A stretch of 44,127 nucleotides of DNA, from the NCBI GenBank assembly GCA_001794755.1, contig MGKT01000007.1:1-44127 (forward strand). Reading direction: 5' to 3'. Below, piece by piece: positions 2,954 through 30,847 of the stretch (positions within the stretch are counted from its first letter, which is position 1; every line of letters starts with the position of its first letter). The stretch is from Candidatus Yanofskybacteria bacterium RIFCSPLOWO2_02_FULL_44_18. Lineage in GTDB: Bacteria; Patescibacteriota; Minisyncoccia; 2-02-FULL-40-12; GWA2-44-9. Below the pieces are notes generated by a model. It was given only the letters and a program-made list of their open reading frames with translations, was not told the DNA's origin and did not search any database. Position numbers and translations under genes: made by a program.

Positions 2954-2988
2954 TAAATCGTTTTTATTCCCTTGCCTACTTGCGCCTT

Positions 2989-3070
2989 GGTGGAGGCGGA
3001 ACTTTCGGTCACGGATAATTTGCTCGCCAGCCGCTTGCAAATTTCCGCGACCCCGCCAGCGGCGGGATTT
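2989..3070 (-). repeat. dispersed hairpin element, copy A (tRNA-tail-like end plus GGTCGCGGAAATTT/AAATTATCCGTGACC hairpin)
   Basis: TTCGGTCACGGATAATTT (3004-3021) and AAATTTCCGCGACCCCG (3039-3055) are shared exactly with copy B at 30620-30662. Confidence 0.75.
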
Positions 3071-30217: not shown

Positions 30218-30348
30218 ATGGCGTGATGAATATTGTAGCATTTAATAGAGATTTTTACAAACAAAAACAAGCTTTGTCTGCCTGTTACAATAAAACTATA
30301 ACTTTATGAAATCCCAGATAGAAATACCGGCCTGTTTGATAATTTTGG

Positions 30349-30555
30349 TTATTGGATTCTGAAAATAGCTTTCGCTTCAATAGCCCCCTCAACAGCTTCT
30401 ACAATCATTCTCTTTGCTTCATTAATATTTTTCCCCCAGGAAACAGCGCCCTGTACATTTTTAGCCTCTACAGAGTATCCGCCTATGTCTTTTTCAGATT
30501 CAAAAATACAATTAAACGATCCGTATTTTGTTTTTACATTAAGTATTTTTTTCAT
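30349..30555 (-). CDS. HicB-like antitoxin-fold protein (possibly frameshifted; continuation to 30296)
   Basis: 68 aa, KTKYGSFNCIFESEKDIGGYSVEAKNVQGAVSWGKNINEAKRMIVEAVEGAIEA; +1 frame continues QNPITKIIKQAGISIWDFIKL*. Confidence 0.65.
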   Translation of the reverse strand: MKKILNVKTKYGSFNCIFESEKDIGGYSVEAKNVQGAVSWGKNINEAKRMIVEAVEGAIEAKAIFRIQ

Positions 30556-30600
30556 AAATCAATAATAACACAATTGAATATAACATACATGAGTTTCCCA

Positions 30601-30774
30601 ATTGGCGATGAGGGAGGGATTCGGTCACGGATAATTTTCTTCTGAAAATTTCCGCGACCCCGGCTCGGCGCCGTCGCGCCTCCGCCTTTCTCATCCCTCC
30701 TCACCCGCAATGATGCTCCGTTCAGACAGCCACAAGCTGTCTTTACGGATCATTGGCGATGAGGGAGGGATTCG
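30601..30774 (-). repeat. dispersed hairpin element, copy B, bounded by a 23-bp direct repeat of the tRNA-Ser 3' end
   Basis: ATTGGCGATGAGGGAGGGATTCG at 30601-30623 and 30752-30774; element core 30620-30662. Confidence 0.85.
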
Positions 30775-30847
30775 AACCCTCGATACGGGTTTAACCCCGT
30801 ATAACAGGTTAGCAACCTGCCGCCTTCAGCCTCTCGGCCACCTCATC
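30754..30847 (-). tRNA. tRNA-Ser (GCU)
   Basis: GATGAGGTGGCCGAGAGGCTGAAGGCG GCAGG-TTGCTAA-CCTGT...CGAGGG TTCGAAT CCCTC CCTCATC G CCA. Confidence 0.93.

Follow-up and report, generated by a model that had tools for sequence, protein, structure and literature searches.

The 44,127-nucleotide (nt) contig MGKT01000007.1 of Candidatus Yanofskybacteria bacterium RIFCSPLOWO2_02_FULL_44_18, analysed here in full as the window, carries a 151-bp insert in the 3' end of its gene for tRNA-Ser(GCU). Judged by sequence comparison, this insert belongs to a family of tiny non-coding elements that is widespread in Patescibacteria and appears to be undescribed. The element is recurrent and integrative in its behaviour, and it is probably mobile. 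We favour, as the probable explanation, a non-autonomous and structure-dependent integrative element family of Patescibacteria, whose folded sense strand would be inserted by an enzyme acting in trans.

At the tRNA-Ser locus, the 23-bp sequence ATTGGCGATGAGGGAGGGATTCG occurs in exact copies at 30601–30623 and 30752–30774, and no third copy exists in the window even when 3 mismatches are allowed (0 expected). Chance as the origin of the pair was rejected, as the repeat is exact and present twice against an expectation of 0. The inner copy (30752–30774, minus strand) is the working 3' end of tRNA-Ser(GCT), including the encoded CCA and 2 bp past the gene, and the tRNA itself was located at 30754–30847 on the minus strand. 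The outer, displaced tail (30601–30622, minus strand, up to the T-loop junction) is its exact duplicate. Both copies diverge at the same step in the T-loop, between C56 and G57, where GGATTC is followed by GGTCAC in the outer copy and by GAACCC in the inner copy. Between these junctions lies the insert (30623–30773, minus strand), which is non-coding and has no match in Rfam. A sequence-only reading of the window had described the exact duplication, the real tRNA end with its CCA, the loss of identity within the T-loop, and an insert of about 150 bp without an open reading frame (ORF), all of which the analysis bore out. The insert folds strongly on either strand, and better on the tRNA-sense strand (minus, −80.1 kcal/mol, z = −7.4 against shuffles) than on the plus strand (−68.8 kcal/mol, z = −7.1).

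Read on the plus strand, elements of the family follow the order outer tail, hairpin H1, hairpin H2, TTTC, target arm, a loop that is often a terminator, inner tail, and gene body. In the window, H1 occupies 30623–30659 (minus strand; conserved GGTCACRGATAATTT...AAATTTCCGCGACC in the plus-strand reading), H2 30660–30686 (minus strand; CCGnCTCG...CTCCGnC), and the target arm, an imperfect complement of the tRNA-Ser tail marked by inverted repeats, 30691–30714 (minus strand). A further inverted repeat at 30713–30753 forms a hairpin between the arm and the tRNA tail, as the loop of the long palindrome. A strict search for the hairpin pattern across GTDB genomes, with one genome per species, gave 114 stretches and 80 loci, and every one with a named lineage belongs to Patescibacteria. 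From 70 cores (H1 and H2) a covariance model was built, which matches the window core at 30623–30686 (E = 6e-15) and detects the family in 98 of the 384 genomes searched in this class, with up to 12 copies per genome, and at a stricter limit in 36 of 380 genomes spread across the phylum. Copy number ranges from 0 to 12 within a single genus (g121), and in distant members of the class the tails of tRNA-Glu and tRNA-Ser are found attached to the hairpin. The core matches no family in Rfam 15 at gathering score, and the element is named in no catalogue consulted and in no paper found in open-licence PubMed Central, although it may be described elsewhere.

The two-hairpin core is conserved, folds on the tRNA-sense strand, and shows strong covariation. 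The variable n/n' pair of H2 is C-G in 32 sequences, A-U in 17, G-C in 14, and U-A in 7, and is broken in none; across the core, cells with a double change number 81, compared with 20.5 after shuffling. In the plus-strand reading, the first nine pairs of H1 contain 108 A.C mismatches, no G.T mismatches, and 4 others. Mismatches that are A.C and never G.T on this strand correspond to G.U wobbles on the sense strand, which is also the strand that gives H2 its better fold in 67 of 70 cores. A second type of unit, CTTACAG..GTACACCTTTTG with a hairpin, was seen at seven loci (L072, L074, L092, L117, L119, L089, and L052), either arrayed by itself at the T-loop junction or inserted between H1 and H2. 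An extra hairpin within the target arm, often with a GCAG loop, occurs at L036, L045, L096, L100, L106, L109, and L115 and in the topA copies.

The family is joined to the ends of many different genes. A tRNA 3' end was detected opposite 47 of the 70 copies that could be tested, with 26 anticodons represented, and 2 copies are in the wrong orientation. Inspection of the other contexts showed 3 copies facing transfer-messenger RNA (tmRNA), confirmed in L043 and L231, 2 facing tRNAs that apparently contain introns, and 5 at the 3' end of topA. In the 12-copy genome G368, further copies adjoin the ends of what we take, from the translated sequence there, to be rplL and rpsI. At L104 and L109, tRNA genes missed by ARAGORN are apparently split by intron-like inserts beside the element. 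The T-loop junction lies 17–20 nt from the tRNA 3' end at a constant base step, and a second class of copies has its junction at the 3' end itself. T-loop elements each carry a copy of the gene tail that keeps the target gene whole. The direct repeats of inner and outer tail span 5 to 60 bp, a range that is expected if the outer, unselected tail decays. The sequence-only reading had raised the possibility of a tRNA-derived chimera, which overlooks that the core forms a conserved family of its own and that tmRNA, topA, and ribosomal-protein gene ends may also serve as targets. The nearly constant sense orientation, immediately 3' of genes for which high expression is expected, together with palindromes that resemble terminators, would also suit a terminator or trailer RNA that is useful to the host and owes its spread to horizontal transfer with ordinary recombination rather than to selfish movement. 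We regard such a 3'-end module as very improbable, given the patchy distribution (98 of 384 genomes), the exact T-loop duplication with decaying outer tails, and arrays of identical units.

Evidence for movement comes from empty and filled sites and from repeated units. In sister contigs, the tRNA-Leu(CAG) site is empty in L046 and filled in L094 and L099 with the element and a 19-bp tail duplication, leaving the outer flank intact, and family member G012 has a syntenic comF/tRNA-Ser(GCU)/IF2 region without the element. Near-identical units form arrays at tRNA-Glu and tRNA-Leu. At the tmRNA of L231, two such units flank a 166-aa ORF (1639–2139) with an N-terminal membrane segment. Inner and outer tails at the tRNA-Glu of G090 are alike over only ~10 bp beside the junction, so that the inner tail probably moved together with the element. 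L234 also has a nearly identical pair of copies (1592 and 5271), inverted relative to each other and 3.7 kb apart. The attL/attR-like arrangement and the non-autonomous mobile element suggested by the sequence-only reading are thus supported by the joining of one hairpin to many tRNA tails and by the empty/filled pair; neither a duplication lacking the hairpin nor a repeat rarely beside tRNA tails, the patterns it had set against itself, overturned it. Its third suggestion, the remnant of a larger excised island, was rejected: the size is small and constant, with H1 almost always less than 330 bp from the tRNA in genome after genome.

The 631-kb source genome (G000, 9 contigs) contains four perfect occurrences of the hairpin GGTCACGGATAATTT: at tRNA-Ser, at tRNA-Lys(TTT), 3.9 kb farther out with a tRNA-Lys tail, and at window position 3007. 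The tRNA-Lys(TTT) copy (C6:60383) repeats the tail–hairpin–tail–tRNA layout of tRNA-Ser exactly, and copies in other genomes share the arrangement. Between the two tRNA-Lys tail copies lies a cassette-like gene for a 1255-aa phosphoenolpyruvate (PEP) synthase-like protein (L179, 2563–6330, contig C6), and an arm–tail–H1 fragment at C6:56504 resembles the junction of a circle or tandem. The second window copy (2988–3063, minus strand) is truncated and consists of the tail TGGTGGAGGCGGAACTTTC, H1 (3007–3052), and the start of H2; its tail looks like a tRNA 3' end with CCA. Elsewhere in this genome, an H1-like hairpin with no tail copy lies directly 3' of tRNA-Leu(CAG) (C6:145072), and a large serine recombinase beside a 374-aa phage-type integrase (L178, 1689–4620) probably represents another mobile element. 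A small ORF adjoining the outer tail in the window (30300–30560, minus strand) is presumably HicB-like, a label taken from reading its sequence.

The region after H2 matches the target of each copy. It pairs with its own tail at a mean of −21.1 kcal/mol, compared with −15.4 kcal/mol for the tails of other isoacceptors, and none of 2000 permutations did as well. In the 3'-end class, the complement reaches 3–7 nt into the gene at most sites, and in the shortest elements it starts right at the end of H2. The cores do not follow this pattern: for 3 of 48 copies, against 2.0 expected, the most similar core occupies the same isoacceptor, and cores one edit apart are found at tRNA-Lys and tRNA-Arg, or at tRNA-Val and tRNA-Lys. 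Because core similarity is unrelated to the tRNA occupied, cores seem to move between tRNAs, with the core and the target half exchanged independently. These features raise the possibility, which we hold only tentatively, of a self-contained, retargetable element that chooses its site by base pairing, combining a fixed core with an exchangeable arm that pairs with the target gene across the junction, and moving as a folded single strand through a host enzyme so far unconnected with mobility. A fold-back mechanism that would copy the tail during insertion was also considered, and is weakened by the imperfect arm of L097 despite its perfect 60-bp direct repeat and by the short arm at topA.

In the structure-dependent integration that we favour, a trans-acting enzyme would cut out the element and insert it again as a folded strand of single-stranded DNA or RNA. 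The arm could hold the left or right end, or a new target, at the same place relative to H1 and H2. This alignment is proposed to set the exchange at the point where the tails begin alike, after which the displaced old tail would decay. Several results weigh against this explanation. No dedicated enzyme tracking the element emerged from the searches for integrase, Y1 transposase, IS110 transposase, and reverse transcriptase: element-rich genomes have one common Xer-type recombinase with no surplus, and no Xer-type recombinase was found in G294, which has 8 copies; Y1 transposase was found neither in the source genome nor in carriers G056, G184, and G368; the DEDD transposase of IS110 (bridge RNA) elements was found in 0 of 42 genomes; and the reverse transcriptase domain RVT_1, expected of a retroelement or group II-like element, is absent from 4 of 6 carriers, including G368 with its 12 copies. 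The element had no match in IMG/VR or a phage collection, and one weak, partial match in a plasmid collection. The comparison of empty and filled sites covers a single close pair, the fold of the sense strand suits RNA as well as single-stranded DNA, and the decoupling of core and target could stem either from retargeting or from gene conversion between copies.

Some of the same results bear on a tyrosine-integrase origin, in which the elements would be att-site remnants or minimal satellites of T-loop islands whose integrase resides in an unsampled phage or plasmid. The T-loop site, restored gene tail, decay of the outer tail, tmRNA target, and accretion arrays all suit such satellites. We nevertheless consider this origin unlikely, since no integrase recurs near the elements or is in excess in element-rich genomes, viral contigs contain no match, a single core occupies 26 anticodon types as well as protein genes, and the hairpins covary and are accompanied by a target-matching arm. 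Clustering of neighbouring genes in search of a helper returned housekeeping genes only, among them what we take, from reading their sequences, to be ParB, TopA, RuvA, and LepA.

Alternatively, the element could move at the level of RNA, with a sense RNA entering abundant RNAs at a guide-matched site and then being reverse transcribed, in a cycle like that of short interspersed nuclear elements (SINEs) or introns. The sense-strand fold with G.U pairs, an arm that complements both sides of the junction as an intron guide does, and targets that are abundant RNAs (tRNA, tmRNA, and ribosomal-protein mRNAs) are consistent with this cycle. It is quite improbable, however, given the distribution of RVT_1 and the extent of the duplications, which continue past the mature tRNA end, into a terminator in L097, and at tRNA-Lys include an encoded non-CCA end. 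These duplications indicate that mature tRNA was not the template, and together with the absence of reverse transcriptase from most of the carriers tested they also weaken a model in which mature tRNA undergoes target-primed reverse transcription.

Roughly one in four of the genomes sampled from a huge, mostly uncultured class carries an element that enters essential tRNA genes of dozens of types at one exact base, leaving them unbroken, with no recognisable enzyme. If the arm does guide insertion, it would embody a new principle of site choice, and a guide-directed insertion system separate from integrons, IS605, IS110, and CRISPR-linked transposons. Even without guiding by the arm, the family offers a defined natural system for the spread of tiny gene-less elements, and it can cause tRNA ends and islands to be misannotated in Patescibacteria.

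The closest parallels among known systems lie in different features of the element. Genomic islands integrated by tyrosine integrases of the T-loop subclass share the site within the tRNA gene, the restored tail, the tandem accretion, and the direct repeat of the tRNA 3' end with a T-loop crossover. The element differs from them in its size of about 130–300 bp, its lack of genes, the absence of an integrase found inside or tracking it, its structured core with a target-complementary arm, and the occurrence of a single core at dozens of genes, whereas islands have lineages tied to one or a few tRNA targets. Integron cassettes and their attC sites likewise rely on a folded strand with unpaired bases, form arrays, and enclose genes between repeated sites, as seen here for the PEP synthase at tRNA-Lys and the 166-aa ORF at tmRNA. 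In contrast to attC, the element has a C-to-G junction and no GTTRRRY core, and its target is the end of a host gene; the enclosed genes lie in either orientation, and recombinase content, at the family level, is the common single PF00589 protein rather than an integrase-like surplus. IS200/IS605 elements and repetitive extragenic palindromes with their associated tyrosine transposases (REP/RAYT) also use strand-specific hairpins and guide pairing with the cleavage site, but Y1 is absent from the source genome, the tail duplication of the element is long, and its arm of 8–25 nt compares with an IS200/IS605 guide of about 4 nt. Miniature inverted-repeat transposable elements (MITEs) are similarly short, non-autonomous, intergenic repeats, but the element lacks terminal inverted repeats, as H1 and the target arm do not form a terminal pair, and its target duplication has no fixed length (5–60 bp). 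Taken by analogy, the element therefore resembles tRNA islands in the logic of its site and attC or IS605 in its folding, and resembles none of these systems in its machinery.
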